This document shows, piece after piece, positions 897-14,687 of a DNA stretch of 64,000 nucleotides. The stretch's first letter is position 1, and every line of letters begins with the position of its first letter. The notes below the pieces were generated by a model. The model saw only the letters and a list, made by a program, of their open reading frames with translations, had not been told where the DNA came from and did not search any database. A program made the translations under genes and the position numbers. Source of the DNA: Myroides sp. JBRI-B21084 (GTDB taxonomy: Bacteria > Bacteroidota > Bacteroidia > Flavobacteriales > Flavobacteriaceae); the NCBI RefSeq assembly GCF_030545015.1, contig NZ_CP120653.1, positions 1,426,001 to 1,490,000 of the forward strand, given 5' to 3'.

Positions 897-943
897 TCTT
901 TTTGTCTGGTCGTTGTCTTTTATGTGGGTCGTCCAAAAATTAC

Positions 944-1080
944 AGCTAACGGGGCGGCGGCTTTGCGAAGTTCTTTTTCCGAGCAAGCTCGGAGAAAGGA
1001 TTTAGCAAAATCGCATGATGTGCGAAGTTCGCGAAGCGACAAGCGCATCGTGCGGTGTAGGCGCCGCCCCGATGTGGCGA
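944..1080 (-). repeat. attC-like site A1 (distal half of the composite site)
   Basis: A half-site reading AGCTAAC (944-950) is followed by a perfect 10-bp outer stem, 950-959 with 1062-1071. Inside it are further GC-rich pairings and a small hairpin around 981-998. The site ends in a degenerate half-site GTGGCGA (1074-1080), where GTG replaces GTT. On the minus strand it closes the gene-less mini-unit at 1074-1105 and opens cassette 4. Any reading frame across it is a by-product of its low stop-codon density. Confidence 0.6.
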
Positions 1081-1096
1081 AAGGAGCGAAAGCGGA

Positions 1097-1234
1097 TTTC
1101 GCCACATCGGTTCGGGGCTTGGCGTAGTGGCGGCATTATAGCACTGCCGTTGATACGAAGCACCAAAGTTCAAATTTAGCACAAATGTTCATACGAAGCA
1201 CTTCGCCCGCCATTACGCCAAGCCCTTGTTATAG
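1097..1234 (-). repeat. attC-like site A2 closing the efflux-operon cassette
   Basis: The stem GGGCTTGGCGTAGTGGCGG (1115-1133) pairs with 1207-1225 at 18 of 19 positions plus one G.T. The outer half-site GTTATAG (1228-1234) on the + strand is, on the minus strand, the opening half of the attC. It continues as GTTATAGCCAGTGG, complementary at 13 of 14 positions to the start of the same cassette (10042-10055). The loop shares the string AAATTTAGCAC and the flank TTCGCCCGC with site C at 11171-11302, so the two sites are related. Confidence 0.7.
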
Positions 1235-1457
1235 CCAGTGGTTCTTGTCCACCGTCCTTGTGAACCATTGTCAATACTGCATTTCTCCGTCTTTGTCGTG
1301 TCGGGATGTGCGGTTGCGTATTTTTTATTTTCAGAAAGGGTGGAGCTTTTTTTTAATTCAATTTTGTTTGGGCGGAAAAGGGATAAGCTCTTTTGCAAAC
1401 TTTGGATTGTGTTTCGGCTTGTGCGGTTTGCAAATGTGCTTACACCTGTGTCGGGGC

Positions 1458-1907
1458 TTACATATAAATTATCCTTACACTAATCGTTTTGTCTGTGTTC
1501 AATTCAAAACTTGCTTTGGAAAAATTAGGCCTGTTTCGCAAACCTATTGACTGATAATTAGAAAATCCAATTCCTTCTTTGGGCAAAAGAAAGCCTTTAT
1601 CAACCTTACCGTTGCTGTTTTCATCGTGTAAAATATTCACGGCATATTTCCCTTTGGGCAGATTTTTAAAAGTAATTTCAGATTTGCCATTTACAATTTT
1701 CGCTTTCTCTAATCGGTAATATTTTTTGTAATCTTCATCGGGGATTGAATTATCTTTGTTATAGAGGGCGAATTGAACAACACCCTTTGAATTTCGTAAA
1801 TTTTCTACCTTAACGGTCAAGATGTAGGTTTCTGCCTGATTTTCCGAAAACGAACAGAGAAAAAAACATAACCCAACTGTCAGTATAATAAAAATTGTTG
1901 CTTTCAT
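1458..1907 (-). CDS. DUF2141 family exported protein
   Basis: This 149-residue protein has an N-terminal signal peptide (about residues 1-25, hydrophobic core IFIILTVGLCFFLCSF). The remainder matches the DUF2141 pattern of a small beta-rich domain: an initial segment with LRNSKGVVQFALYN, a central LPKGKYAVNILHDENSNGK and a late GFSN. Its biochemical role is not established. The start is adjacent to the stop of the RND pump gene, so it is the last gene of the efflux operon and of array cassette 3. It probably acts in the periplasm or on a membrane surface. The family call is firm; the function is unknown. Confidence 0.85.
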   Translation of the reverse strand: MKATIFIILTVGLCFFLCSFSENQAETYILTVKVENLRNSKGVVQFALYNKDNSIPDEDYKKYYRLEKAKIVNGKSEITFKNLPKGKYAVNILHDENSNGKVDKGFLLPKEGIGFSNYQSIGLRNRPNFSKASFELNTDKTISVRIIYM

Positions 1908-4900
1908 TTATTGTTGTTTTTTATTTGAACCCAATTTTTCTTTTATTCTATCTACTCCGTAGTAAACCATTGGCACTAAATAAACCGTCAATGCCAATGA
2001 AGAGAGCAAACCGCCAATAATTACCCACGCCAAACCGTTTTTCCATTCGGCTGCTGTTCCGCTGGCTAATGCTATGGGCAACATTCCTATTGCCATAGAT
2101 AAGGTTGTCATCAAAATGGGTCGCATTCGTTCTTTTCCTGCGGTAATCAATGCTTCTTTGTAATGTTTGCCCTCGGCTTTGAGCTGGTTGGTAAAGTCCA
2201 CAATCAAGATGGAATTTTTTGTTACCAATCCCATTAACATAATCAAGCCGAGCAAAGCAAATAAGCTCAAATTGCTTAACGATAAATTCAAGGCTAAAAA
2301 TGCTCCGATAGCTGCAACGGGTATGGCAAATAAGGCAACAAAAGGATAAATGTAACTGTCGTATAAGGCTACCATAATCAAATAAATCAGTAAGAATGAA
2401 ATCAGCAATACCGAACCCAAAGCCCCGAAACTGTCGTTTTGCCGTTTAATATCGCTTCCCCAAGTCATTTGTATGCCGTTTGGTAAGGGATTGTTTTTGA
2501 GATATGCCACAACATCGTCTGCTACTGTTCCCGAAGGTCTGCCGAGTGCATCGGAAGTTAATGTAACGGCAGGTTGTCGGTCTTTTCGTTCTAAAAGCGA
2601 AGGCGAATTATCTCTTTCAATAGTTGCAAACTGTGAAACTTCAATCGGAATGCCCATTGGATTTATAATGTTGAGTTGGTTTACATCATCATAATTTTTA
2701 CGGCTGAATTTATCCAACCAAATCCGTACAGGATATTCTTTTCCGTTTTCCGTTAAAGTGGCATCGTCATTTCCTGTAAAAGCGGTACGCAAATTCATTC
2801 CCACATAAGCCGTGTTCAATCCTAAACGCTGCATTTTGTCTTTGTCAGGAATGACTTTTAATTCAGGGCTTCCTGCTTCTACCGAAATCCGCACATTATC
2901 TGCTCCGGGTATTTTTTCAATGACTGTTTTTAAGTCATTACCTGTCTGCATTACCTGGTCTAAGTCGCTTCCGCTTAATGTAATTTCTATCGGTGCAGAA
3001 CGTGGAATTAAGCCTAATGCTATCATTGAAAAATTGATGCCTGAATATTCTTTTTGCAAATCAGTTCTCAATTTTCGCATAAAGGTTTCGGTAGAGAGAT
3101 GATTTGTTTCTTTCTTGGATTTTAGCTGAATGGTAAATTCGGTTTTATTGGCAGAGCCAACTCCCAAACTTCCAATACCGGTGCTTGGTCCGCCCACATT
3201 ACTGAAAACTGTTGCAACTTCGGGTTGCTTCAAAATATAGTTTTCTATTTTTTCTGAAACCAAATTGTTTTGCTGAATGGAAGTACTTTTATCAAACTCT
3301 AATGCCAAACGGAATTTCCCTTGGTCGCCTGTGGAAATGAGTTCCTTTCCAATAATTCCCTGTTTCATCATTGCTGCCGTCCCTACGAACAGCAACAAAA
3401 CAAATCCTGTAAAAATGAGTTTGTGATGTAAAACCCAATTCAATGTTCTGCCATACCAATTGATAAATTGGTCTAACTGATGTTCAAACCAAAGCAAAAA
3501 ACGGTTGAAGATATTAGTCGGCTGCAAATCTTCTTTTTTCCCGATGCGTGAAGCCAGCCAAGGCGTTAAAGTAAAACCTACCAGTAAACTGGTAAGTGTA
3601 GAAGTGATAACCACCACCGAAAACTGTTTGAGCATATCGGCAACAAAAACCTGTAAGAATAAAATCGGCAGAAACACAACCACATCAACCAATGTAATAG
3701 ACAATGCCGAAAAACCGATTTCCATTCTTCCGTCCATAGCTGCCGTTCTTTTTTCTTTACCCATATCCAAATGACGTTGGATATTTTCTAAAACTACGGT
3801 AGCATCGTCCACCAAAATACCGATGATTAAAGACATCGCCAGCAAAGTCATCAGGTTGAGCGTATAGCCCAAAAGCCACATCACGGCAAAAGCGGTAATT
3901 AAGGAAGTAGGAATAGCGACCAACACAATCAGTGAGTTTCTGAAACTTCGCAGGAACAGCAACATTACTAACGACACTAAAATAACGGCTAAAATCAAGT
4001 CAAATACCACCGAATTAACGGCTGCAATGGTGTTATCGGTGCTGTCATCCGTAACTACAAATTTTACATCTGCATTGGCATTTTGTTTTTCAATGGACTG
4101 AAATTTTTCTCTAATCAGTTTTGAAACATCAACGGCATTGGCATCGCCTTGTTTTTTTATCATTAAACCAATACCGTTTTTACCATTGTAACGGCTGTAA
4201 GAAGCGGTTTCTTTAATACCGTCCGTTACTTCTGCAATATCTTTCACATAAACAGGGCTGTTTGGAAAAGGCATAGCAACCTGAACATTCTTTATGTCCG
4301 TAATGGTGTTGAACTTTCCTACCAAACGTACCGAAATACTTTCTGTATCGGTTTGCAATTTTCCGGCAGGTAAATCAATCCCCGAACGATTGACGGCTTC
4401 CACAACCTGGTACAAAGAAATTTTATAGAGCTTCAATTTTTCTTTGTCCACCTTGATTTGAATTTCCCTTTCTTCCCCACCTAAAATGGTTATCTCTGCC
4501 ACTCCTTTTAGCTGTTGGATTTGTGGCAGGTAATCGTCTTTCATTTTTTGATAAAACACTGTCGGCTCTAATTTGCTTGTTGCACTTACCGACATTATCG
4601 GCAAATCATTAGGCGATACTTTGCTCATTACAGGGTTTTGAATATCGTTAGGCAAGTCCTTTCGGATATTGTCAATATAGCGTTGAGCGTCCTGCATTGT
4701 TTTGTCCAAATCCGTTCCGTATTTCAGGTTGGCTATGATGATTGAAGCATTGGGTAATGATTTGGTAAGCAAATAATCTACACCCTCCAAATTGGAAAGT
4801 GCATCTTCAATTTTTCGGGAAACGGAAGTTTCCACTTCGTTGGGTTCTGCACCGGGATAAACCGTTCGGATTACTACAACAGGCTGATTAAAATCGGGCA

Positions 4901-5009
4901 TCAGTTCATAGCTCAAATTCTTGTAGCCGATAATTCCCAACAGGGCAAATACGCTGAAAAGTACGATAATCAGCGAGGGACGTTTGATTGATATTTCTGT
5001 AATATTCAT
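1908..5009 (-). CDS. RND-family efflux pump, inner-membrane subunit (AcrB/MexB type)
   Basis: At 1033 residues this is full length for a hydrophobe/amphiphile efflux (HAE1-type) RND transporter. It starts with MNITEISIKRPSLIIVLFSV, the usual cytoplasmic tip plus TM1. It has the TM4 motif GILVDDATVVLENIQRH with the paired Asp of the proton relay, and two symmetrical halves, each a large periplasmic domain followed by TM clusters (about 335-540 and 865-1015). It would export drugs or detergents by proton antiport with the HlyD and TolC partners encoded just upstream. The substrate cannot be read from sequence. The gene sits inside an integron-like cassette, which is unusual for a pump operon. 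Confidence 0.95.
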   Translation of the reverse strand: MNITEISIKRPSLIIVLFSVFALLGIIGYKNLSYELMPDFNQPVVVIRTVYPGAEPNEVETSVSRKIEDALSNLEGVDYLLTKSLPNASIIIANLKYGTDLDKTMQDAQRYIDNIRKDLPNDIQNPVMSKVSPNDLPIMSVSATSKLEPTVFYQKMKDDYLPQIQQLKGVAEITILGGEEREIQIKVDKEKLKLYKISLYQVVEAVNRSGIDLPAGKLQTDTESISVRLVGKFNTITDIKNVQVAMPFPNSPVYVKDIAEVTDGIKETASYSRYNGKNGIGLMIKKQGDANAVDVSKLIREKFQSIEKQNANADVKFVVTDDSTDNTIAAVNSVVFDLILAVILVSLVMLLFLRSFRNSLIVLVAIPTSLITAFAVMWLLGYTLNLMTLLAMSLIIGILVDDATVVLENIQRHLDMGKEKRTAAMDGRMEIGFSALSITLVDVVVFLPILFLQVFVADMLKQFSVVVITSTLTSLLVGFTLTPWLASRIGKKEDLQPTNIFNRFLLWFEHQLDQFINWYGRTLNWVLHHKLIFTGFVLLLFVGTAAMMKQGIIGKELISTGDQGKFRLALEFDKSTSIQQNNLVSEKIENYILKQPEVATVFSNVGGPSTGIGSLGVGSANKTEFTIQLKSKKETNHLSTETFMRKLRTDLQKEYSGINFSMIALGLIPRSAPIEITLSGSDLDQVMQTGNDLKTVIEKIPGADNVRISVEAGSPELKVIPDKDKMQRLGLNTAYVGMNLRTAFTGNDDATLTENGKEYPVRIWLDKFSRKNYDDVNQLNIINPMGIPIEVSQFATIERDNSPSLLERKDRQPAVTLTSDALGRPSGTVADDVVAYLKNNPLPNGIQMTWGSDIKRQNDSFGALGSVLLISFLLIYLIMVALYDSYIYPFVALFAIPVAAIGAFLALNLSLSNLSLFALLGLIMLMGLVTKNSILIVDFTNQLKAEGKHYKEALITAGKERMRPILMTTLSMAIGMLPIALASGTAAEWKNGLAWVIIGGLLSSLALTVYLVPMVYYGVDRIKEKLGSNKKQQ

Positions 5010-5020
5010 TTTCGCTGATT

Positions 5021-6076
5021 TTATTTAATCGTAATATTCGCTCCGTCAAACAGATTGATAAAGCCATTCGTTACCACAATATCGCCTGTTGCCAATCCGT
5101 CTGATACAATCGTTCTATTGCCGATATTTCCTGATATGGTAATAGATTGCAATACGGCTTTTCCGTTTTTTATGAGATACACTTTCGCTTTTCCATTTTC
5201 TTCTGTAATGGCAGATGTAGGGATAAGAATACCTTGCTCTTGCTTGCTTTCAGAAAGATTTACCTTGCCGAACATTCCCGATTTTATGGTTAAGTTTTTG
5301 GTGTTGGTAACCTGAAACTGTACCAGAAAGCTATTGCCCAGATTGGCTTTGCTTCCTGTTATTATTACTTTTCCCGAAAGGGAAATATCGGGATAAACAT
5401 CAGCATTGATTTTGTAGGTTTGATTGTTTTGAAACTGCACCAAATCATTTTCGGGAACATTAACCGTAAAACGTAAAGTGCTTATATCCGTAATTTGTAG
5501 CAACGGAATACCCGGTGCTGCAAAACCGCCCTCCTCATTGAACTTGGCAGTTACCACACCATTGAAAGGTGCTTTTATAGTGGTTTTACTGATTTGCTCC
5601 AATAAAGTCGCTTTCTGAACTTTTGCAGATTTCAATCCCAATCTTGCTTTTTCCAATTGTATGCCCTGAACGGCATCGGCTTCCGTTAAAATGGTGTATC
5701 GTTTTACATCGTCTTCCAAACCCTCAATCTGCACTTCAACCGTTTGCAGTTGTAACTTTAACAACGAATTATCCAACTGAATAAGTGTTTGTCCTTTGCT
5801 TACATAGCTTCCCATATCTACCAAAACGGCATTGATTTTCCCCTGTATGTCCGCACTGATTTTTGTTTCCTTATTCGGCTCAAAAGTACCTGTATAAGTA
5901 TTTGCATCATCAATAGTCTGCAAACGAATGGTGTCAGCATTTATAGTAATAGGTTTTTCTTTGTCATATTGATACACCTTGCTTTCGGTGGTTTCTTTAT
6001 TGTTTTTCAACTTAAAAAACACAAGTGCTATTACCGCAATCAAAGCAATTATCCCGATTATTTTTTTCCAATTCAT
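5021..6076 (-). CDS. RND efflux periplasmic adaptor (HlyD/MFP family)
   Basis: A 351-residue membrane-fusion protein that bridges the RND pump and the outer-membrane channel. Residues 5-22 are a single N-terminal membrane anchor. Next come a first lipoyl half (around 75-105, with GKINAVLVDMGSYVSKGQTL), an alpha-helical hairpin (about 105-160), the second lipoyl half (APFNGVVTAKFNEEGGFAAPG) and beta-barrel and membrane-proximal domains. It lies 11 bp from the pump gene and 24 bp from the TolC gene, so co-transcription is very likely. Confidence 0.93.
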   Translation of the reverse strand: MNWKKIIGIIALIAVIALVFFKLKNNKETTESKVYQYDKEKPITINADTIRLQTIDDANTYTGTFEPNKETKISADIQGKINAVLVDMGSYVSKGQTLIQLDNSLLKLQLQTVEVQIEGLEDDVKRYTILTEADAVQGIQLEKARLGLKSAKVQKATLLEQISKTTIKAPFNGVVTAKFNEEGGFAAPGIPLLQITDISTLRFTVNVPENDLVQFQNNQTYKINADVYPDISLSGKVIITGSKANLGNSFLVQFQVTNTKNLTIKSGMFGKVNLSESKQEQGILIPTSAITEENGKAKVYLIKNGKAVLQSITISGNIGNRTIVSDGLATGDIVVTNGFINLFDGANITIK

Positions 6077-6100
6077 ATTCTTGATTTTTTATCCGTTATT

Positions 6101-7459
6101 TTAATTCTTAATTGTTCCTGCCAGCTTTTTTAGCTCCAAATCCGCTTTCAGATAATCTATAACTGCCGACAGGTAATTTTGCTGTGCTTCACGAAGTGCA
6201 TTATCAGCCAATAAAACATCGGTAAGTGTTGTCGTACCTTGCTTTTGTTGTAAAATGGTTTGCTCATAAATAGATTGAGCCAAAGTGATTTGATTTTCGG
6301 TATTGATGACTGTTTGCTGTGCAATCTTTCTTTGCCTTAAAGCATTTTCAGTTTCCATTTTGTTTTTATCGCCAATCAGTTGAGCCTGCAATTCGTTATT
6401 GCTGATTTCCAGTTTTTTTTGATTTATTTTTCGCTGTGTAACTGTTCCGTTGAAAAGCGGGTAAGTCAGTTGCAAACCTGCAAAGCCTATGGGATAAAAT
6501 TTCAGAAAGTCATTTGGGGTTTTGTCGTAGCCAAAACCTGTTGTTCCGTAGGAAGCAATCAAATTAAGCGAGGGTAGAAATCGTGATTTGTTAAACGTAC
6601 TCAATTCACTGTTCAATAGTTTGTTTTGTGTCTTAATAATTTTCAAATCCAATATATTTTCTACATTATTTTCCGTCAAGGTTTGCTGTTCGATTTCAGA
6701 AACAACGGTAATATTTCGCTCCAATGGGATACCGATGTTCAGTTTTAGTGCATTTAGAATTGAAATGTATTTATTGTGAACGTTTTCCCTTTGGGTATTT
6801 AACTGCTCGGCTTGCAATTTCACTTTACTCACATCTGTTCCCTTTGCCAATAACTGTTCTTTCAAAAGTTCCATATTCTTTAAGAGCTTTTGGGTATTTA
6901 TCAGATTGCTTTCCAAAAAATCCAATTGATGTTTCAATATTTGAGCGTTATAATACAGCGTAGTGATGTCGTATAAAACCTGTTCTTCCGATTTTTGAAA
7001 TTGAAGCTGTGTCAGTGCATTGGCAATTCTTGTATTCTCAATCGCTCCATAAACCTGCGGATTATACAACGGCATTGCCAACTGCACATTTGCATTGATG
7101 TTGTGTGGAACACCAAATTGCAAATCTCTGAATTGCCCTTCGGGTGCTTGCGGATTGAGTGCATTCATCGGCATTAGCTGTGTAGGCAATTCCATAAAAT
7201 ATTTGTAATCGGCATTGGCTGTAACTTTCGGAATGAGATTGGCTTTTGCTTCTTTTTCCCTTTGTTCGCTGATGCGGATATGGTTTCTGTTGATTTGCAG
7301 GGTTTTGTTATAGACCTGTGCCGTATCAATACATTGTCTCAGTGTCCAGACTTCTTGTGCCTGAACAGTAATCCACCCGATAAATATCAACGGAATAATA
7401 AGTAGTTTGTGAGTGTTCACTAACATAATTGAGCAAATTTTTTTGTTTTCTATGTTCAT
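6101..7459 (-). CDS. TolC-family outer-membrane efflux channel
   Basis: About 452 residues from the ATG at 7459. A signal peptide with core LLIIPLIFIGWITVQA is followed by EVWTLRQCIDTAQ, the classic start of an outer-membrane efflux protein. Two repeated long helical regions follow, with QLNTQRENVHN in the first and ALRQRKIAQQTVINTENQI in the second. An upstream TTG at 7477 is in frame but lies inside the preceding gene; the ATG one base after that gene's stop is the better start. It forms the exit duct of the tripartite pump. Confidence 0.92.
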   Translation of the reverse strand: MNIENKKICSIMLVNTHKLLIIPLIFIGWITVQAQEVWTLRQCIDTAQVYNKTLQINRNHIRISEQREKEAKANLIPKVTANADYKYFMELPTQLMPMNALNPQAPEGQFRDLQFGVPHNINANVQLAMPLYNPQVYGAIENTRIANALTQLQFQKSEEQVLYDITTLYYNAQILKHQLDFLESNLINTQKLLKNMELLKEQLLAKGTDVSKVKLQAEQLNTQRENVHNKYISILNALKLNIGIPLERNITVVSEIEQQTLTENNVENILDLKIIKTQNKLLNSELSTFNKSRFLPSLNLIASYGTTGFGYDKTPNDFLKFYPIGFAGLQLTYPLFNGTVTQRKINQKKLEISNNELQAQLIGDKNKMETENALRQRKIAQQTVINTENQITLAQSIYEQTILQQKQGTTTLTDVLLADNALREAQQNYLSAVIDYLKADLELKKLAGTIKN

Positions 7460-7460
7460 T

Positions 7461-7757
7461 CTATTTGAAAAATTCAAATTTTATTTCCTTTGGCATAAAG
7501 TGAATTCCTTTATAATCGCTAACGGCTTTGATCTGATGTTTTACTAATGCCGGAATGGTTGCTGCTTCGCCAGATTTCAAAAAGATTTCTTTATTGTTGA
7601 TTCTCAAAATACACTCGCCTTCATAAATGAATAACATCGACTCCTGATCAGCGTGATGCAGAGGCATTACTTCCCCTGCATTGGCTTGCATCTGTTTAGT
7701 GGCAAAATCGGTACCCGTCGCAAGTACCGTAACATTTGGGATGACAGATTTTTCCAT
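7461..7757 (-). CDS. Small cupin-domain protein
   Basis: A single-domain cupin of 98 residues. It carries cupin motif 1-like residues (around PLHHADQESMLFIYEGE, residues 32-48) and motif 2-like residues (ATIPALVKHQIKAV, about 66-79). Metal-ligand His residues are present but no reaction can be named. It sits between the cytochrome-like gene and tolC, 3-4 bp from the former, so it belongs to the efflux operon. A second cupin at 8317-8643 in the same operon is related in architecture but not closely in sequence. Confidence 0.8.
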   Translation of the reverse strand: MEKSVIPNVTVLATGTDFATKQMQANAGEVMPLHHADQESMLFIYEGECILRINNKEIFLKSGEAATIPALVKHQIKAVSDYKGIHFMPKEIKFEFFK

Positions 7758-7760
7758 AAT

Positions 7761-8281
7761 TTAATTTTTGTTATTGTTGGGTGTATTATTTTTCATTTCA
7801 TCAAACCAACGAGTAAAATCCTGATTGCTATAAGAAGGAGTAGTGGGTATTTTTATCTTTATATACTCGTGTTTGGTAGCTTGGTGGCAGGTGTTACAGT
7901 TGTTGGTAAGCGTAATATATCCTCGTTTAAATTCCTCTTTATTTTGGTGTTCGATGGCATTGTCCACAGCCGCCATTCCTGGTTCTATCATCGGTATAGC
8001 TTTTGTTTCATCACGGTCGGGATGCATTGTTTTTATATCATCAAACAATTCTTCGAGTTCATGCATCGCAAAATCTGCCAATTCCCAATTTTCGTTGATA
8101 CCCGCAAACCATAGTTTATTGTGATGATTTTGGATGCTGCCCATAAAATCACCAAAACCGGGTTTATAGGCATTGTCTATTTTAGCCTCTAATTCATCAA
8201 TTTGTTTTTGCAGTTCTTGCTTGACTGCGAACAGGCAGAAATCATTAATAGTATTGTGATCGGGATAAATATCTTCCTCAT
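7761..8281 (-). pseudogene. Frameshifted lipoprotein with a c-type heme motif
   Basis: An ATG at 8279-8281 opens a lipoprotein signal (MRKIFIPITILLMISACS) whose frame stops after about 30 residues. The rest of the protein continues in another frame from about 8220 to 7761: ELQKQIDELEAKIDNAY, then helical segments and a CNTCH heme-binding motif. One missing base near 8215-8222 (an A in the AGCAAGAAC tract) explains the break. The ATG at 8144 gives a 127-residue protein but loses the export signal and coiled-coil start. It may be a real recent mutation, a sequencing error, or a programmed shift; the first two are likelier. The heme motif and position suggest a periplasmic redox or metal-linked role. 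Confidence 0.75.
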
Positions 8282-8316
8282 ATTTAATTATTTTTTGAGT
8301 TGTTTATTTTGTTGTT

Positions 8317-8643
8317 TTAAACATCGCGTATCATTGTCAGCAGCATTTTAAAGCGTTCAACCGCTTTCAGTGCATGGGGAACATTTGCCGGCATAATAAT
8401 ACTCTCGCCTTTCTTTAAAAGATGAAGCTTACCACCAATAGTAATCTCTGCTTCACCGTCCAAAATCAGCACAATGGCATCAAAAGGCGTTTTATGCTCG
8501 GATAATCCCTGTTCTTTGTCAAACGAGAACAAAGTCAAATTACCGCCTTTGCTTTTGATAACCTGTTTGCTGATTACACCGCCGCTTGTATATTCAATCG
8601 CATTTTCGAGATTGAAAATGCTTTCTTTTTCAAATGTTGCCAT
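8317..8643 (-). CDS. Cupin-domain protein
   Basis: This 108-residue cupin has the pattern KTPFDAIVLILDGEAEITIGG (residues about 52-72) and GESIIMPANVPHALKAVERF (about 80-99), which are the two conserved cupin motifs. The fold is clear and the substrate unknown. Small cupins of this type are common in Bacteroidota stress and metal gene groups. It is 10 bp downstream of the lipoprotein gene and 36 bp before the frameshifted cytochrome-like gene, in the same operon. Start ATG at 8643. Confidence 0.85.
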   Translation of the reverse strand: MATFEKESIFNLENAIEYTSGGVISKQVIKSKGGNLTLFSFDKEQGLSEHKTPFDAIVLILDGEAEITIGGKLHLLKKGESIIMPANVPHALKAVERFKMLLTMIRDV

Positions 8644-8652
8644 ACTCGTTGT

Positions 8653-9108
8653 TTAATTAAAATACTGATGATAGTGCTGATAAGAATATTGCAGTTGCGA
8701 AACAATTTCATTTGCTTTTGTTGCATCTGTTTCATTTTCCAACGTCTTCACTATTTCAAGATGTGGATGCAGCCATTTGTGCAGTTCATCGTGGCTTTTT
8801 CCGTCCATTGTACAGCTTTTTATGAGTTGGCTATTTTGGTCTTTTACCTGTTGAGCTAATGCTTTATAATCTGTGTGATTATTTTGGATATAAGAATTTA
8901 CCAGTTCTTCGCCTTTCAATACAAAGGGTTTCATTTCTTCGTTCACCAGCCATTTTTCACCATTGTTGAGTTCAATAGCTTCGGAACTCTCATCGTGTTG
9001 ATGTTCTGTGTGATTTTCTGTTTCCTGATGTGTAGTTGATTTTTCAGTGGAATTATTACAGCTCCACAAAAGCATAAGGCTCATTCCAAATACAATTACT
9101 TTTTTCAT
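8653..9108 (-). CDS. His-rich lipoprotein of unknown function
   Basis: A 151-residue lipoprotein with a lipobox ending in LLWSC (Cys17), followed by a His/Glu-rich linker (about residues 26-45, HTEHQHDESSE) that could bind metal. A helical domain follows with further His residues and CTMDGKSHDELHKWLHPHLE (about 105-124). I do not recognise a named family; the helical His/Met-containing domain resembles proteins found with heavy-metal efflux systems, which is inference. It is the second gene of the efflux operon, 7 bp after tetR, and should be anchored in an outer or inner membrane leaflet. Confidence 0.75.
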   Translation of the reverse strand: MKKVIVFGMSLMLLWSCNNSTEKSTTHQETENHTEHQHDESSEAIELNNGEKWLVNEEMKPFVLKGEELVNSYIQNNHTDYKALAQQVKDQNSQLIKSCTMDGKSHDELHKWLHPHLEIVKTLENETDATKANEIVSQLQYSYQHYHQYFN

Positions 9109-9115
9109 ATCTCAA

Positions 9116-9706
9116 TTATTTTTTTTCAATCATTTTTAAAATTCCCTCCAAAACTGCTTTCCCGTCTTTCATCAGGTTGGATTTATGCCCTGACAATTTC
9201 CATTTCAATACGGTCATTCTCATTCCTCCAAGTATAATAGTGGTAAGCGTGGAAGCATTGATTAGCTTGCCGTATTGCTCTGCTTTTTGTCCTTTTTCAA
9301 TGTTTGCATTGACATATTGGTGCATTAATTCCATTATTTCGGAAACTTTATAACTCAATCCCTCATCATAATGAAAAATACTTTCCGCAAAAATGACACT
9401 AACAATCGCAGGCTTATCTGTAAAGGTTTGCAGTTGCGATTTAAAAATATCCCTCAATTCATCTCCTGCCGTTGCGTTAGGATTTACAGGAATGTTACTT
9501 ATGCGGTTTTTCATTCCTGTTATGAAATAGTTGAGCAAACCAAGTAAAATATCATTCTTGCTTTTAAAATGACGGTATAAAGCCGGTTCGGATAAACCAA
9601 TATCGGCAGCCAGCGTTTTGATAGTCAGGTTTTGAATACCGTAAGCATCAATCCGAGCCGTTGCAGCTTCCATTATTTCTATTTGCCTATCTGTGAACTT
9701 TTCCAT
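9116..9706 (-). CDS. TetR-family transcriptional repressor of the efflux operon
   Basis: At 196 residues this is the normal TetR size. The N-terminal helix-turn-helix is clear (residues 5-50): IMEAATARIDAYGIQNLTIK, then LAADIGLSEPALYRHFKSKND. The C-terminal ligand domain is unassigned. It is the first gene of the operon, with a perfect inverted repeat just before its ATG (9719-9739), so it probably represses itself and the downstream pump genes until a ligand binds. Confidence 0.92.
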   Translation of the reverse strand: MEKFTDRQIEIMEAATARIDAYGIQNLTIKTLAADIGLSEPALYRHFKSKNDILLGLLNYFITGMKNRISNIPVNPNATAGDELRDIFKSQLQTFTDKPAIVSVIFAESIFHYDEGLSYKVSEIMELMHQYVNANIEKGQKAEQYGKLINASTLTTIILGGMRMTVLKWKLSGHKSNLMKDGKAVLEGILKMIEKK

Positions 9707-9718
9707 ATTATTTGTTTG

Positions 9719-9739
9719 CTAACTAATCACGTTAGTTAG
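9719..9739. promoter_or_regulatory. Candidate TetR operator
   Basis: A perfect 8-bp inverted repeat, CTAACTAA-N5-TTAGTTAG, lies 13 bp before the tetR start codon and just downstream of the promoter at 9750-9779. That is the position where bound repressor would block transcription. The match is seen directly; the binding by this TetR is inferred. Confidence 0.75.
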
Positions 9740-9749
9740 TATTCACTCG

Positions 9750-9779
9750 CAAAGGTAGAAATAGTTTTTTAAGTGACAA
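9750..9779 (-). promoter_or_regulatory. Bacteroidota-type promoter of the efflux operon
   Basis: On the minus strand, TTG (9777-9779) is followed after 19 bases by TACCTTTG (9750-9757), which fits the flavobacterial consensus TTG-N17-23-TAnnTTTG exactly. Transcription would start around 9743-9745, directly before the operator-like inverted repeat. The cassette thus carries its own promoter. Confidence 0.8.
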
Positions 9780-10048
9780 TATTTTCTTGAAAAAAGTTTT
9801 TCACTTCTTTCAAATCGTCATTAAAAGTGTTGGAAAAAAGTGGCTCTTTTGGTTTGCCAAGCGTTGGTTTTGTGTGTCGGGCAAAACCAAATGTGCCAAA
9901 TGCGTGTCGGCTAAAATTGAATTAAAAAAATGTGCGGTGGGAAAAATAAAAAATACAGAAAGGTAGGCAATGAGTGTCGGCTTACTTGCTGTTTAATTGT
10001 TAAAATGGTTACTGGCTGTTAATGTTCGGAGGGTTGTCCTACCATTGG
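9780..10048. other. Gene-free leader of cassette 3
   Basis: No plausible gene is seen here. The stretch contains several GTGTCGG-type words. Read on the minus strand, it shows interrupted similarity to 1228-1460 at the other end of the same cassette: GTTATAGCCA-TGG, then TATTTTTTATTTT, then TTTTTTTAATTCAATTTT in the same order. The two ends therefore look like diverged inverted copies flanking the efflux operon. Confidence 0.5.
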
Positions 10049-10243
10049 CTATAACGTTTTGCGGCTTTGCGAAGGAGCGGATTAGAAAGACTAAACTTTC
10101 AATTTTGAACTAACTTAAGCAAAACCATTTTTTCTATTTGCTAATTTACATTTTAAAAGCAAATAAAAAATGGTTTTGCGGATTAAATGCACAAACCTTG
10201 AATTAACCACTTAACCCGCTCTTTTGCAAAACCGATGTTGGCG
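10049..10243 (-). repeat. attC-like site B between efflux and nucleotidyltransferase cassettes
   Basis: Outer half-sites are CTATAAC (10049-10055) and GTTGGCG (10237-10243). Outer stems are GTTTTGC (10056-10062) with 10226-10232 and GAGCGG (10075-10080) with 10216-10221. A strong inner hairpin pairs 10119-10142 with 10158-10179, with only a 2-base bulge. The right edge GTTGGCGGTA (10237-10246) is the perfect complement of 11168-11177 at the other end of the nucleotidyltransferase cassette. That complementarity is what marks it as an attC rather than a generic palindrome. Confidence 0.75.
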
Positions 10244-10252
10244 GTAGTTTTT

Positions 10253-11023
10253 TTATCTTATTTTGTGTAGGATTTCTTTCAGTTTGGGTTCAATATTTAG
10301 TTCATCAAATAGTTTTTCCGATAAATTTAATGAGTTCTCAAAAGCCAAAATGATGTTTTTGGGATTTAAATCTGATGTTACTTTTTTATACGCTGAATAC
10401 CAAATCGTGTCAATGTCCTTTTCGAGACTTTTAGTCGGACTTTCCCAATGTTGCGTTTTGCTTGTTCTTGCTCTTATAAGCCAAAGCAAGTATTTCTGCA
10501 CATTTGATAAACTGTGATGAGCGTGAGCAAATTCTTCTCGTTTAATCAAGTTGCTTGTTGTCAGTACAACATTCAGTAATGATTGGCTTAACCACAAAAT
10601 ATTTTCATTTGTTATTCTTTCAGGCGATTTCGTTTTGATTTGATTAAGCGTTTTCCTTAAAAGTCCATCTTTGTCGGTTAGGTTCATTTGGTCAAAATCG
10701 CTAAATTCAACAATTCCGTCCCAAGATTTGATAATTTCAATTTCCTCCGTTTTTAAAAAATGGAATTCTCCTCTGACCATATTCTCGAAAATAGCAACTT
10801 CACTTCCATATTCGTTTGTAAAATATAAAGCCAAAGGATGAATTTGATTTACCCATTTTTCTGTCGAGAAATTTTCTTTATTTTTCAAGAAGATGTAAAA
10901 TTCGATGTCAGAATATTTGTCTCCTTCGTTTTTGGTAAATGAACCATACATAAAAACGGCGGAAACATTTTCGTCTTGTTGAGCTATATATTTTGTTTTG
11001 TCAATCATTTGTAACTGTGTCAT
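10253..11023 (-). CDS. Lincosamide nucleotidyltransferase-like protein (Lnu(F)/Lnu(H) group)
   Basis: About 256 residues from the ATG at 11023. The N-terminal nucleotidyltransferase domain has MYGSFTKNEGDKYSDIEFY, the GS...DxD-type motif that binds nucleotide and metal. Next come NEYGSEVAIFENMVRGEFHF and a helical C-terminal half with QKYLLWLIRARTSKTQHWESP. This layout matches Lnu(F)-like enzymes, which adenylylate lincomycin and clindamycin; lnu(F) itself is known as an integron cassette gene. Upstream in-frame codons to 11077 give an unlikely N-terminus. Substrate specificity is inferred. It is the only gene in cassette 2. Confidence 0.8.
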   Translation of the reverse strand: MTQLQMIDKTKYIAQQDENVSAVFMYGSFTKNEGDKYSDIEFYIFLKNKENFSTEKWVNQIHPLALYFTNEYGSEVAIFENMVRGEFHFLKTEEIEIIKSWDGIVEFSDFDQMNLTDKDGLLRKTLNQIKTKSPERITNENILWLSQSLLNVVLTTSNLIKREEFAHAHHSLSNVQKYLLWLIRARTSKTQHWESPTKSLEKDIDTIWYSAYKKVTSDLNPKNIILAFENSLNLSEKLFDELNIEPKLKEILHKIR

Positions 11024-11170
11024 TTTTCTAATTTTTAAATGTTGATAATAGAAATTTTCACTACTTTTCGAAAGCAATGAAAAAGTTTTACGTTGTTTAT
11101 TTTGGACAGTTACTTATAGCTTCATCGGATTATACTTTTTTATGTTCAACATTCTGTTTGGTAAAATTAC

Positions 11171-11302
11171 CGCCAACGGTAACGTATAAGCGTAGTGCGG
11201 GATTACAAAGCCAACACTTTCAACTTTATCAAAATGTTTGTTAATAGTTCATAAGTTTAAATTTAGCACTTTCGCCCGCATTACGCTTATACAATGTTGT
11301 GT
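11171..11302 (-). repeat. attC-like site C between nucleotidyltransferase and HsdR-N cassettes
   Basis: Half-sites are CGCCAAC (11171-11177) and GTTGTGT (11296-11302). The stem GTATAAGCGTAGTGCGGG (11184-11201) pairs with 11275-11292 at 17 of 18 positions plus one G.T. The loop shares AAATTTAGCAC and TTCGCCCGC with site A2. The right flank GTTGTGTGTAGGC (11296-11308) is complementary, with two mismatches, to 12507-12519 at the start of the next cassette toward the recombinase. Confidence 0.75.
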
Positions 11303-11310
11303 GTAGGCTT

Positions 11311-12525
11311 TTATTTATATGTTTTTCTAAATTCATCTCGGACAAATCCATAATCTATAAAATTAGCAATTAATTCATTTACATTCTTGTCTTTCCAGAC
11401 AAATGGTTTTGAATTGTCAATTGTTCCTAAATATATTCTGTCGTTTTTTATTAAATGTGGACTATGAACTTTTATAAAATCAATCACATCTTTGTTTTTA
11501 GCCCGTCCTTTGTTTCCAACTGTTAATGTTCCATCGTGCCAAAATGAATATTCATTATCGTTAATTTCCACAAATCTGTCTATTGAATATTCAAGGGACA
11601 TATGACTGTTTTCAAAATCGTCTATTGCTACATTGAAAAGTGTAAACCCATTACTGTTTTTCCATTTTGGGTGGTTTTTTGTCGAAATTTTTCCCATAAT
11701 TGAAATACTTACCAATTCGGTTTCTTGGTTGTCATTTTCTACAATGAAATATCTGTATTCTCCTGTAAAACTTCCTCCTGCTGCATTTCCAAATGTTGTA
11801 AATCTTATTCCACCATCACTAATGAAAGTTTTACTTTTTAAGTGAAGTTGATTTGCTTTTTCGCTATCATCATAAATCAGTCCGACCAAGTTTGTTATGA
11901 AAGGAACTAATTTTATATCTGTATCTTCTCCAAGATTATAATCAGCTAACAATATATCTCGGTTTTTTTCAATATTGTCTTTATGATTGGGTCTTTTCCA
12001 TTCGTTAACTATTTCTTCTTGAAATTCTATTCCTATTCCTTTGATTAAGTCAGAATATTTTGGAATTGTTACAATCTCGAGATAATCTCTAATTTCATTA
12101 TTCCAACTATACGAAATTGTTTCGTGTCCGTTAGTCATTACCATTATTTCTGGTTCTAAAAATTCGTCATAGTGCATTGTTTGTTCAAAAACTTTGTCAG
12201 TTAAGTGAACTGTTGGTGCTTTACATTCAATGACGATTAATGGAATTTTTTCGAAATTTTCTTTGTCGAATCCTGAAACAATAATATCTGCTCTTCCTCT
12301 TTTTCCCTTTTGATAATATGATAATGGAACTTCTACGTCAATCATTTCGATTGGAACATTAAATTCGGAAATTAGTTTTGATACAAATTCCTGTCGAATT
12401 ATTTCTTCAGGTGTTATTTGTATCAGTTTTTTTCTTGAATGGCACAGAACACATTCTTTTCCGTTTTTAATGTATCGTTTCAAATCTTCGTTCGGTTTTT
12501 TGGTCAGCTTGCACACAACACCCAA
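11311..12525 (-). CDS. HsdR N-terminal domain / PD-(D/E)XK-type protein (cassette 1)
   Basis: Up to 404 residues. Residues about 45-150 match the type I restriction enzyme R-subunit N-terminal domain: ITPEEIIRQEFVSKLI, then KGRADIIV and PLIVIECKAP, giving the D-x(n)-ExK nuclease core, then QTMHYDEFLEPEIMVMTNG. There is no helicase, so it is a stand-alone nuclease-like protein with an unrecognised C-terminal half; a defence role is plausible but unproven. A CVLC pair precedes the domain. The start is uncertain: no ATG occurs before residue 61. The TTG at 12525 lies upstream of the expected transcript start; GTG at 12516 or TTG at 12483 are alternatives. Confidence 0.75.
   Translation of the reverse strand: MGVVCKLTKKPNEDLKRYIKNGKECVLCHSRKKLIQITPEEIIRQEFVSKLISEFNVPIEMIDVEVPLSYYQKGKRGRADIIVSGFDKENFEKIPLIVIECKAPTVHLTDKVFEQTMHYDEFLEPEIMVMTNGHETISYSWNNEIRDYLEIVTIPKYSDLIKGIGIEFQEEIVNEWKRPNHKDNIEKNRDILLADYNLGEDTDIKLVPFITNLVGLIYDDSEKANQLHLKSKTFISDGGIRFTTFGNAAGGSFTGEYRYFIVENDNQETELVSISIMGKISTKNHPKWKNSNGFTLFNVAIDDFENSHMSLEYSIDRFVEINDNEYSFWHDGTLTVGNKGRAKNKDVIDFIKVHSPHLIKNDRIYLGTIDNSKPFVWKDKNVNELIANFIDYGFVRDEFRKTYK
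12507..12523 (-). other. attI-like recombination point
   Basis: On the minus strand the sequence GGGTG/TTGTGTGCAAGC holds the expected G/TT crossover (G is base 12519, the cassette starts at 12518). Cassette 1 begins with TTGTGTGCAAGC, mirrored by the half-site of its own attC at 11296-11308. No palindrome lies on the recombinase side, as expected for attI rather than attC. The site is about 180 bp from the recombinase start codon. Confidence 0.65.
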
Positions 12526-12551
12526 ATATACGAAAGTTTTTGTGTTTTCAA
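12523..12551 (-). promoter_or_regulatory. Promoter firing into the cassette array (Pc-like)
   Basis: On the minus strand TTG (12549-12551) and TATATTTG (12523-12530) are separated by 18 bases, an exact match to the flavobacterial promoter consensus. Transcription should begin around 12514-12518, at or just after the inferred crossover. Whatever cassette sits first would be expressed from its first bases. Confidence 0.75.
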
Positions 12552-12695
12552 AAAGAACTTAAAAAGTTTTAAAATAGTTAATTATATTGCTGATTTTTAA
12601 GTAAATTTAGTTTCGTGTTTTTAATAGATATAATAAAAAATACAGTTTTTGCTATATTAAATCTATTTGTTTTACGAACTAAATTTTCTGTATTT

Positions 12696-13763
12696 ATGGA
12701 TTTTAATGTTTACAATTTTAGCTTTGGCACTCACAATAACAAAGAAGTAATTTGGATACGTTTTGCTAAAAATTACTTACTTATTCAAAATCTTAAAAAC
12801 GCCTTTCCATCGGTAAAATTTAGCAATACCAATAAAGCATGGTATTTGCCCGATTTACCTAGCGTACGCACGGCTTTAAATCTTTCACAAAAAGATTTTG
12901 GTGCCACATTAATACAGCAAATAAATCAGGTAAATAGACAAGCTTTTATTAAATTTATTAATCAACTTAAATTAAAAGCGTATAGTAAAAATACAATGCG
13001 TACGTATGTTTCTGAATTTGCACATTTACTTAAAACATTAAATCATTTTTCTGTTGATAACCTTCCGCAAGAGCGCTTAAAAGACTATTTTTTATATTGT
13101 ATTGAAAAAGAAAAAATTAAAGAAAATCATTTAAACAGCCGTATTAATGCCATAAAATTTTATTATGAACAGGTTTGCCACAAGCCTAAAATGTTTTTTG
13201 AAATACCGCGTCCTAAAACCCCAAAAACATTACCAAAAATGCTTTCTAAGGTCGAAATTAAAAAGATATTTCAGCATACAACCAATCCTAAACATTTACT
13301 TATGTTGCAATTATGCTACGGAATGGGGTTGCGAGTAAGCGAAATTGTTCATTTAAAAATAGAACACATTAACAGTACCAATATGTTGGTTTTAATTGCA
13401 GGCGCAAAAGGTAAAAAAGATCGTTATACTAATTTGCCAGAATCGGTTTTACAATTATTGCGAAATTACTATGTAACGTATCGCCCAAAAATATACTTGT
13501 TTGAAGGTCAATACAGAGGTGCATATACTACCCGAAGTGTGCAAAATGTGTTTAAACAAGCTATGAAGCGGGCTAAAATAAACAAAAATATTGGGGTACA
13601 TGGCTTGCGACATTCTTATGCAACACATTTAATTGAAAGTGGTGCCGATATTAGGTTTTTGCAAGAATTGTTAGGACATAATTCTATAAAAACTACCCAA
13701 ATTTATACACATGTTACCGATGTTGCCAAGACAAAAGTGAAAAGTCCGCTCGATTTTTTATAA
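12696..13763 (+). CDS. Integron-integrase-like tyrosine recombinase
   Basis: 355 residues from the ATG at 12696; in-frame codons back to 12615 add a poor N-terminus. An extra N-terminal domain of about 90 residues precedes a SAM-like core-binding domain and the catalytic domain. Catalytic residues are visible: Arg in GMGLRVSEI, Lys in GKKDRYT, His/Arg in HGLRHSYATH, His in LGHNS and Tyr in IYTHV. The C-terminus KVKSPLDFL resembles the RSPLD end of IntI proteins and differs from the XerD at 22632-23531. The IntI-specific insertion between the second and third catalytic patches is short or absent. It is divergent from the cassette array. Confidence 0.85.
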   Translation: MDFNVYNFSFGTHNNKEVIWIRFAKNYLLIQNLKNAFPSVKFSNTNKAWYLPDLPSVRTALNLSQKDFGATLIQQINQVNRQAFIKFINQLKLKAYSKNTMRTYVSEFAHLLKTLNHFSVDNLPQERLKDYFLYCIEKEKIKENHLNSRINAIKFYYEQVCHKPKMFFEIPRPKTPKTLPKMLSKVEIKKIFQHTTNPKHLLMLQLCYGMGLRVSEIVHLKIEHINSTNMLVLIAGAKGKKDRYTNLPESVLQLLRNYYVTYRPKIYLFEGQYRGAYTTRSVQNVFKQAMKRAKINKNIGVHGLRHSYATHLIESGADIRFLQELLGHNSIKTTQIYTHVTDVAKTKVKSPLDFL

Positions 13764-13769
13764 TCAATA

Positions 13770-14687
13770 TCAAACCAATAAAAAATCTACCAAAAAATAC
13801 CAAGCGGCAATAGTTACAAACGATAGGGGTATGCCGTAACCAACCATCATGTTGCTTAATTCGGGTTTTAGTCCGTAGGTCGATGCTAAAATGGCGCCAG
13901 TAATCATAGGTGCCATGGCAGCTTCAATAATACAAACTTTTGTAGCCAAATCGGTTTTACCTAAAATAAAATAGTACAAACATAGTATTACAAACGGAAG
14001 TAAAATTAATTGAAACGATAACCCCAACAATAAATACCTAAAATGCTTGCCATAGGTTTTAAATTTTAATTGATAACCTACCGAAATTAATGCAACGGGT
14101 GATATAGTTGCAGCCAATTGCTTAAAAGTAGTACTAAGTGCTTCGGGGAAATCAATTTGAAGTAAAATCATGAACAAACCTACCAAAAATGCCAATAAAG
14201 GCGGAAACGTAACCATTTTTTTTAGAATAGATTCGTTTTGCTTTTTTTGATTTGAATATAAAGTAGCAACTAAAACCCCTACGGTTGAAAGTACCACAAA
14301 AGTTCCAGGTAAATCTACAATAATAAGGGTATTTAAGCCTTCATCGCCATACAAAGCTTGTATAATGGGTATGCCTACAAACGATGTGTTGCCTAAACCA
14401 GCAGTTAGTATTAAACACCCCGTAAGTTTTTTTGACCAATGGAAGGTTTTTCCTAAAAAGTTGAATAACACAAACGATAAACCAAAGGCTATCCAAGCAA
14501 CTAAAGCTGGTAAAAGCAAATCCCAACTTAGTTTAATTTTGGGTAAATAGTGTAATGCCATGGCGGGTAATGCCACAAATAATATGTATTGATTTAATAC
14601 AACAGCCGTATTTTTAGGAAAATTTTTTAACCGTTGAATAGCAATTCCTATAAATAAACAAATAAAAAGTAAAAGTATGCTTGACAT
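13770..14687 (-). CDS. AEC-family transporter (auxin efflux carrier type)
   Basis: About 305 residues from the ATG at 14687; an upstream TTG at 14699 is also in frame. Roughly ten hydrophobic segments cover the length in two halves, with AGLGNTSFVGIPIIQALYG (about residues 100-120) typical of membrane-transport (AEC) proteins. The family moves small organic acids or other anions; the substrate here is unknown. It is convergent with the recombinase (6 bp between stops) and lies downstream of rimO, separated by a terminator hairpin. Confidence 0.88.
   Translation of the reverse strand: MSSILLLFICLFIGIAIQRLKNFPKNTAVVLNQYILFVALPAMALHYLPKIKLSWDLLLPALVAWIAFGLSFVLFNFLGKTFHWSKKLTGCLILTAGLGNTSFVGIPIIQALYGDEGLNTLIIVDLPGTFVVLSTVGVLVATLYSNQKKQNESILKKMVTFPPLLAFLVGLFMILLQIDFPEALSTTFKQLAATISPVALISVGYQLKFKTYGKHFRYLLLGLSFQLILLPFVILCLYYFILGKTDLATKVCIIEAAMAPMITGAILASTYGLKPELSNMMVGYGIPLSFVTIAAWYFLVDFLLV

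Follow-up and report, generated by a model that had tools for sequence, protein, structure and literature searches.

Introduction

The described systems closest to the element reported here are the integrons, and the accessible part of a large survey records complete integrons in Bacteroidetes only for Salinibacter ruber, calling the absence of integrons from some clades "intriguing" (PMC9024848). Riemerella anatipestifer was described as capturing a polymerase chain reaction fragment without homology, always with 27 bp on the 5' side and an attC-like 140 bp on the 3' side; the available text of that paper likens the capture to lnu(H) and blaRATA, already notes the attC-like 3' end of one Riemerella resistance unit and does not contain the word recombinase (PMC13148043, 2026). 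The attC site of veb1 is said, in the portion of a third paper at hand, to diverge from the consensus and to be inefficient for recombination (PMC3518468). Here, we analyze a stretch of 64,000 nucleotides (hereafter the window) from Myroides sp. JBRI-B21084 (assembly GCF_030545015.1, contig NZ_CP120653.1, positions 1,426,001 to 1,490,000), in which a tyrosine recombinase gene adjoins a row of attC-like sites. We propose, with a probability of roughly 0.88 and on the strength of sequence comparison, that these sites belong to a 73-kb one-way cassette array, and that the adjacent recombinase inserts and excises cassettes at G^TT via an attI-like site, in the manner of an integron. Our literature search, which covered few subscription journals and no preprints, returned no description of this system, and this is weak evidence of novelty.

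Results

Most units of a one-way array have complementary ends

The window shows the recombinase end of a far larger array, which runs about 60 kb further left beyond the window. As the sequence-only reading had it, the recombinase gene (12696-13763, plus strand), whose product ends in KSPLDFL, is divergent from the array, and the genes between the palindromes lie on the minus strand. Reading outward from the recombinase on that strand, an attI-like block is followed by four cassettes and the start of a fifth. Cassettes 1-4 each end in a site in which a long, imperfect stem lies between an AAC box and a GTT box, the boxes of the gene-free fourth unit being ATC and GAT instead. The same reading had counted three attC-like palindromes; the sites are there, yet number four, since its palindrome at 944-1234 consists of two, at 948-1073 and 1106-1230, which belong with the gene-free unit between them.

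A profile hidden Markov model (HMM), seeded with seven sites and then iterated, found 50 sites in the main array (73 kb), some of them partial and all on the minus strand. A covariance model placed 42 sites in this array (contig positions 1365460-1437313) and at least 65 in the genome, which is a lower bound because 150 of 2737 candidates were scored. A second array of the same genome, at 423669-444745, holds 16 of these sites, one of them reversed, and seven more lie in small clusters. Around relatives of the recombinase, 143 sites were found in 17 of 24 contig stretches, on one strand only within each of the 17, and with the nearest site at most 4 kb from the recombinase. The profile gave no hit at E<=1 on shuffled sequence, and none at E<=1e-3 either in 30 loci of the canonical integron integrase IntI (about 4 kb each) or in the 50 kb to the right of the recombinase; in ten loci of other recombinases there was one edge match, at a locus (L031) bearing a fragment 44% identical to the window recombinase. 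Simpler searches were of little use: a strict search of the window for AAC..GTT arms recovered one site only, a general inverted-repeat scorer hardly rose above shuffled sequence, and a search of 900-13800 against Rfam gave no match at E<=1.

We compared the ten bases after GTT with the reverse complement of the unit's own R'' box in 115 units that have both ends defined and are shorter than 12 kb. The mean match was 7.70 of 10 positions, against 4.38 under within-array permutation (standard deviation 0.16, maximum 4.89, 2000 trials), and 102 units matched at six or more positions. The two boxes of one site derive from adjacent units and match each other at 4.0 of 10. The rule recurs in named genomes (54 units in 14 loci; mean 7.98, permuted 3.87; 50 obeying) and on plasmids, where identical units were collapsed to 20 distinct ones (mean 7.05, permuted 4.05; 16 obeying). 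Within the window, a recount of the letters bore out the end complementarities noted earlier: 11 of 13 for 12507-12519 with 11296-11308, 10 of 10 for 11168-11177 with 10237-10246, and 13 of 14 for 10042-10055 with 1228-1241. The complementarity extends beyond the 7-base box, and one position carries A in all 115 cassette starts and an opposite C in 101 at the other end (G on the reverse complement); this A/C mismatch could let the two boxes be told apart. In the same units the longest open reading frame (ORF) is sense in 103 and antisense in 6, and 6 have none.

A gene-free unit of 158 bp occurs 14 times in the main array, in seven distinct forms with at most four differences from the first copy over the 157 bp compared, and each copy stands at a crossover point. 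Its own ends are complementary too, as in the window copy at 950-1107 (GATGTGGCGAAA / TTTCGCCACATC). A relative of different length exists in a second genome of the same genus (G022; the window's genome is G000), and six more starts occur in the other arrays of G000.

The site stem is conserved as pairing

Across 35 sites of nine genomes, 94.6% of the cells of the helix are paired, against 62.5% in shuffled sequence. Both sides change in 16 of the 17 stem pairs, so that the arms vary in letters and the pairing is kept. Stem covariation reached 0.717, against 0.169 for shuffled and at most 0.123 for slid versions, a comparison tilted towards the predicted helix because the structure was derived from the same alignment. 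Folding of 85 unique sites out of the 143, with cores of 120-128 nt, beat mononucleotide shuffles at a mean z of -3.4.

From AAC to GTT most sites measure 115-135 nt, and some 150-160 or 170-195 nt. Nine of the longest class lie in the main array and five in G022; the long site of the window has a second inner palindrome, GCAAAACCATTTTTT / AAAAAATGGTTTTGC (10119-10179), in its terminal loop, and a site of G022 has a similar one. In a G022 stretch (L035), two different attC-like sites carry identical transposases (246-1301 and 10603-11658) at the same point of their 3' arms. By eye only, this pair is IS110-like, and its position within the sites resembles what we take to be the IS1111-attC group of insertion sequences.

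An attI-like block adjoins the recombinase gene in both orientations

Relatives whose gene is divergent from the array, as in the window, share upstream of the recombinase a block like CTTTCGTATATTTGnGTG, which is conserved up to G^TT; beyond that point the cassette starts differ in all 29 aligned divergent loci. In the window, this alignment, a position weight matrix (PWM) and the letters place the attI-like site, CAAAAACTTTCGTATATTTGGGTG^TT, at 12517-12542 on the minus strand. The PWM was applied to 65 of 80 loci, those with at least 320 nt upstream, and the 27 of them that contributed to the matrix were scored leave-one-out; 57 of the 65 scored above 10, as did 3 of 65 shuffled sequences. 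Within the block lies TATATTTG (12523-12530, minus strand), apparent from the PWM and the letters, and since it fits what we take to be the Bacteroidota -10 consensus, TAnnTTTG, attI may well contain a promoter for the cassettes.

Other relatives, a second group, have the array downstream of the recombinase on its own strand; this held for 15 of the 16 examined, the sixteenth (G032) having no site. For these 15 we predicted the start of cassette 1 from the first attC, and the best match fell 81-228 nt past the recombinase stop codon. Thirteen predictions matched at 8 or more of 11 positions, compared with 5 of 210 swapped and 3 of 750 shuffled predictions.

The recombinase belongs to a clade apart from IntI and Xer

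The 355-aa product of 12696-13763, a predicted integrase, was characterized with Pfam, NCBIfam, sequences from the Protein Data Bank, alignments, a structure model and Foldseek. It consists of an N-terminal domain of about 70 residues, a SAM-like domain, a catalytic domain and the SPLD tail. In an alignment of 28 sequences R213, K238, H302, R305 and Y337 are invariant and H328 nearly so; with H328 in its place in the series, we take these to be the catalytic R, K, H, R, H and Y of tyrosine recombinases. Against the integron-integrase model TIGR02249 the window recombinase scores 192.9 bits and its G022 counterpart 200.4, below the curated cut-off of 265, and both matches skip profile positions about 177-238. 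What is missing is the IntI-specific insert of about 40-42 residues before HxLRH: 23 residues stand between query residues 257 and 281, compared with 66 in IntI4, and the spacing from KGxKDR to HxLRH is 64-65 residues in all 30 measurable members and 106 in 21 of 24 measurable IntI. The sets used for spacing, tail counts and tree comprised 32 clade members, 28 IntI and 7 Xer proteins; the spacing could not be measured in 2 members and 4 IntI, and 3 IntI gave a spurious motif.

The best NCBIfam score was to an XerA-type model (202.2, under its cut-off of 220), and those of XerD (176.1, cut-off 329.6) and XerC (175.1, cut-off 335.15) were missed as well. Foldseek put the Vibrio integron integrase IntI4 (2a3v, E 8.8e-15) on top with XerA (5hxy, 1.4e-14) close behind. 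One regular expression for the SPLD-like tail matched 29 of 32 members, 8 of 28 IntI and none of 7 Xer. In a tree rooted on Xer the recombinase clade, IntI and Xer stand apart as three groups, a rooting that allows no sister-group claim; one member with an 814-residue frame (L094) was left out, and L096 and L121 had no usable frame. The N-terminal domain alone (12696-12920; pLDDT, the predicted local distance difference test score, 83.2) has the order strand-strand-helix-strand-strand-helix and matched nothing in Foldseek at E<=0.001 or in Pfam above cut-off. In two relatives (L022, L025) the frame is 609-610 residues long and the N-terminal part far longer.

Cassettes differ between relatives and recur on resistance plasmids

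The sequence-only reading had named a fixed gene order among relatives, or palindromes spread over the genome without the end rule, as outcomes contrary to it. Neither was found. G022, whose recombinase is 62% identical and whose right flank is the same (permease, rimO), carries 21 sites with different cassettes at the same locus: among 119 cassettes compared, no pair from G000 and G022 aligned over the reporting length of at least 220 nt. The sites of G000 outside the main array lie mostly in its second array, and 16 of 20 units in its other arrays obey the end rule. The integron-like cassette array proposed earlier is supported; the attI x attC recombination named with it would be the means by which the cassettes move.

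Exchange at the crossover is apparent in several comparisons. The lnu(H) cassette of the window is 99.5% identical to one on Empedobacter stercoris pLPY03, the homology ending at the crossover on one side and at most six bases from it on the other, after which the neighbours differ. One OXA site is present in eight plasmid records, and in the seven compared, the query record among them, the sequence beyond its crossover is of four different kinds. Riemerella pRCAD0416RA-1 has two tet(X) copies whose neighbours on both sides differ at such points, and cassettes of G022 and of G055, from another family, share a 1037-nt stretch that is 77% identical and begins at base 1 of both. Cassettes of this kind, re-sorted at G^TT, bear resistance genes on plasmids of Empedobacter, Riemerella, Myroides, Bacteroides and Sphingobacterium; their cargo includes tet(X), lnu(H), lnu(I), blaOXA, estT, ere(D), aadS and others.

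Traces also occur in Proteobacteria. Truncated at the 5' end, relatives of the recombinase stand immediately before tet(X3) on Acinetobacter plasmids and before blaVEB-3 in Klebsiella michiganensis, with each resistance gene in first-cassette position (loci L196-L198 for both cases together). The VEB-1 cassette of an E. coli plasmid starts at the same G^TT, preceded by what we take to be attI1 of a class 1 integron, and its attC matches our site profile (E 3.5e-11) as the sole match at E<=10 in a 5.9-kb stretch with aadB and arr-2 cassettes. These links and the Riemerella capture fit the proposed mechanism without proving that the window recombinase is the agent.

Distribution

Within the window's class, 193 of 395 genomes hold a match to the recombinase by a threshold of E<=1e-45 alone; near-full clade members score at least 168 bits and other recombinases at most about 117. 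IntI scores above the TIGR02249 cut-off in one of the same 395 genomes, and in a whole-phylum sample in 84 of 296, of which 83 lie outside the window's class. Named carriers include Epilithonimonas, Chryseobacterium, Flavobacterium columnare (one copy with a stop), F. covae, Winogradskyella, Tenacibaculum, Arenibacter, Balneicella, Proteiniphilum and Riemerella anatipestifer; one named relative comes from a metagenome-assembled genome labelled Limnohabitans. Among the best 80 of 437 relatives, 36 have at least one site. Of their 92 sites, 91 are found on the opposite strand and 5' of the gene; the one that is not lies in Riemerella.

Cassettes of the window and gene content of the array

All five cassettes lie on the minus strand. 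Cassette 1 (11177-12518) contains a gene at 11311-12525 with an HSDR_N-like N terminus; its listed TTG start falls within attI, and the true start is unsure. Its attC-like core, AAC to GTT, was located by the profile HMM at 11175-11298. Cassette 2 (10055-11176) carries a lincosamide nucleotidyltransferase gene, lnu(H), at 10253-11077, identified by NCBIfam (NF040958, 577.8 bits, cut-off 540) and the plasmid match, and its site (10053-10239, profile HMM) is the long form with the extra inner hairpin. Cassette 3 (1108-10054; site 1106-1230, profile HMM) is an efflux-type operon of about nine ORFs, in which Pfam recognizes an AcrB-type pump, a TetR-like protein, a cupin and DUF2141; TolC-like and adaptor proteins were called by eye only. 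Cassette 4 (950-1107) is the gene-free unit, known from copies compared across the array, and its site (948-1073) was read from the letters. Cassette 5 (1-949), with a gene at about 3-890 that has no Pfam family, continues about 100 nt beyond the left window edge.

The 46 main-array proteins examined include at least one match each to models for type II restriction-modification, Kiwa KwaB, TmtA, GmrSD, AbiU and HEC-06; such arrays, holding phage-defence genes, are therefore worth searching for new ones. In the cassette region of G022 (L035, 13448-14777), a nucleotidyltransferase and a small membrane protein look by eye like a pair of the cyclic oligonucleotide-based antiphage signalling type.

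Discussion

Judged by its sequence, the locus has the features of an integron that can be looked for in this way, with the promoter and the choice of strand left aside, and its recombinase departs from the IntI family on two defining points. The recombinase next to the array would be the enzyme that moves the cassettes, by attI x attC recombination on a folded single strand, probably the bottom one; the first cassette may be read from a promoter inside attI, and the resistance plasmids may be filled by the same system. Since its clade is without the IntI-specific insert, the system would work like an integron yet stand outside the IntI family as defined.

Several observations weigh against this reading. 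Canonical IntI needs an extra helix for the folded attC, and the window recombinase is without it. In 63 of 85 sites the strand opposite to R''-to-R' has the lower folding energy, with a mean difference of only 0.9 kcal. The end rule fails in 13 of 115 units, 4 of 54 in the named genomes and 4 of 20 on plasmids; the gene-free unit opens 11 of the 13 (10 in G000, 1 in G022), its own site going undetected by the profile in those places, and the Riemerella OXA unit matches at 2 of 10, its start and its attC looking of different origin. Eight of the 65 divergent loci have no good attI score, in 3 of the 57 good ones (L157, L181, L187) AT follows the block in place of TT, a Riemerella locus (L189) has no attI upstream and its sole site on the other side of the gene, and one co-directional case among the 13 good ones (G026) has, before the cassette start, bases that resemble the end of an attC, not attI. 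One wrong-strand site each occurs in the second array and on an Empedobacter stretch (L082). By the profile, 7 of the 24 stretches around relatives and 44 of the best 80 loci have no site, several of the former and many of the latter being ended by contig edges, and the linkage of recombinase and array is partly selection, because the stretches were chosen for holding the recombinase. No such recombinase lies in the stretches examined around the second array (L205-L206) and the small clusters, and by tblastn the ten plasmid stretches hold none save one 32% identical relative in Myroides. The latter (L200, 965-1783; 32% over 275 residues) is divergent from an adjoining OXA-347 array and neighbours an IS91-type transposase.

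These arrays without a recombinase suit the possibility that the cassettes are moved in trans by another enzyme, such as XerC/XerD or an integrase elsewhere, and that the neighbouring gene is a bystander. Such a bystander would hardly have an attI-like block beside it in both gene orientations, ending at the crossover, or leave fragments of its clade before tet(X3) and blaVEB-3 in first-cassette place; moreover, the nearest site lies within 4 kb in the 17 stretches, though these were fetched for the recombinase, and we regard movement in trans as very unlikely. Slightly less credit still goes to a canonical integron, in which the integrase is an ordinary IntI and only the host unusual. The narrow lead of 2a3v over XerA, the frequency of the SPLD-like tail among members and IntI compared with Xer, and a VEB-1 cassette with this site type at the presumed attI1 speak for it; it is contradicted by the absent insert and the spacing that goes with it (64-65 instead of 106 residues), by a TIGR02249 score of 192.9 against 265 with a block of profile positions unmatched, by the separation of the clade from 28 IntI and by the single IntI above cut-off in the class.

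Least credible of all, and highly improbable, is the explanation that the palindromes are dispersed repeats, of the repetitive extragenic palindromic or miniature inverted-repeat transposable element kind, between which genes are shuffled by ordinary homologous recombination. The palindromes are indeed many, foldable and partly alike, and the gene-free unit exists in 14 near-identical copies. Yet the site arms differ in sequence with their pairing kept, the borders fall at one point and not anywhere along the repeat, and unit ends match at 7.7 of 10 where the boxes of one site match at 4.0. The homology-free capture in Riemerella, as the available text reports it, points the same way (PMC13148043).

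Hence, we favor the integron-like array served by its neighbouring recombinase. We also lean, with less assurance, towards a wider proposal, in which Bacteroidia would have an integron lineage of their own without the IntI-specific helix, present in about half of the genomes, serving as the main means of cassette exchange of the class and as the source of tet(X), blaVEB and other resistance cassettes for Proteobacteria. Because plasmids carry resistance genes such as tet(X) and lnu(H) within cassettes of this type, the cassettes of such arrays are a likely route for the trade in resistance genes among Bacteroidota. If this is true, part of the integron gap in Bacteroidetes, as stated in the accessible part of the survey (PMC9024848), would stem from searching for IntI. 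It would also explain the rows of resistance genes on Riemerella, Empedobacter, Myroides, Sphingobacterium and Bacteroides plasmids, the xerD fragment before tet(X3) in Acinetobacter, the homology-free capture of resistance units by R. anatipestifer and the poor performance of the veb1 attC with IntI1. Moreover, it makes testable whether recombination of folded attC requires the IntI-specific helix.

Comparison with known systems

XerA, XerC and XerD belong to the same superfamily as the window recombinase, which stays below all three cut-offs and adjoins an attI-like site and an array. With IntI4/VchIntIA (2A3V) it shares alignable core and catalytic domains and the SPLD-type tail, and it differs in the stretch where IntI4 has 66 residues and it has 23. 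The blaVEB-1 cassette of class 1 integrons has an attC that fits our profile, and a VEB-3 copy, after a truncated relative, starts at the same G^TT; it differs in standing at a site that we take to be attI1. According to the part of the paper at hand, its attC is inefficient there (PMC3518468). In the xerD-tet(X3)-ISCR2 module of Acinetobacter, known to us from a portion of its description (PMC9784759), the xerD-like gene is a 5'-truncated relative, 46% identical over residues 120-355, and tet(X3) takes the place of cassette 1; its attC is cut short, and the module is moved by insertion sequences. The large chromosomal integrons, as in Vibrio cholerae, have in common with our locus a recombinase by attI, a one-way array, attC sites 3' of the gene, the R''/R' end rule, the crossover at G^TT and integrase-free arrays resembling clusters of attC sites lacking integrases (PMC9024848, PMC3518468). 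In contrast, the system described here has no IntI-specific insert, an extra N-terminal domain, complementarity that reaches past the 7-base box, the A/C position, sites mostly of 115-135 nt, and a recombinase gene that is either divergent from its array or co-directional with it.

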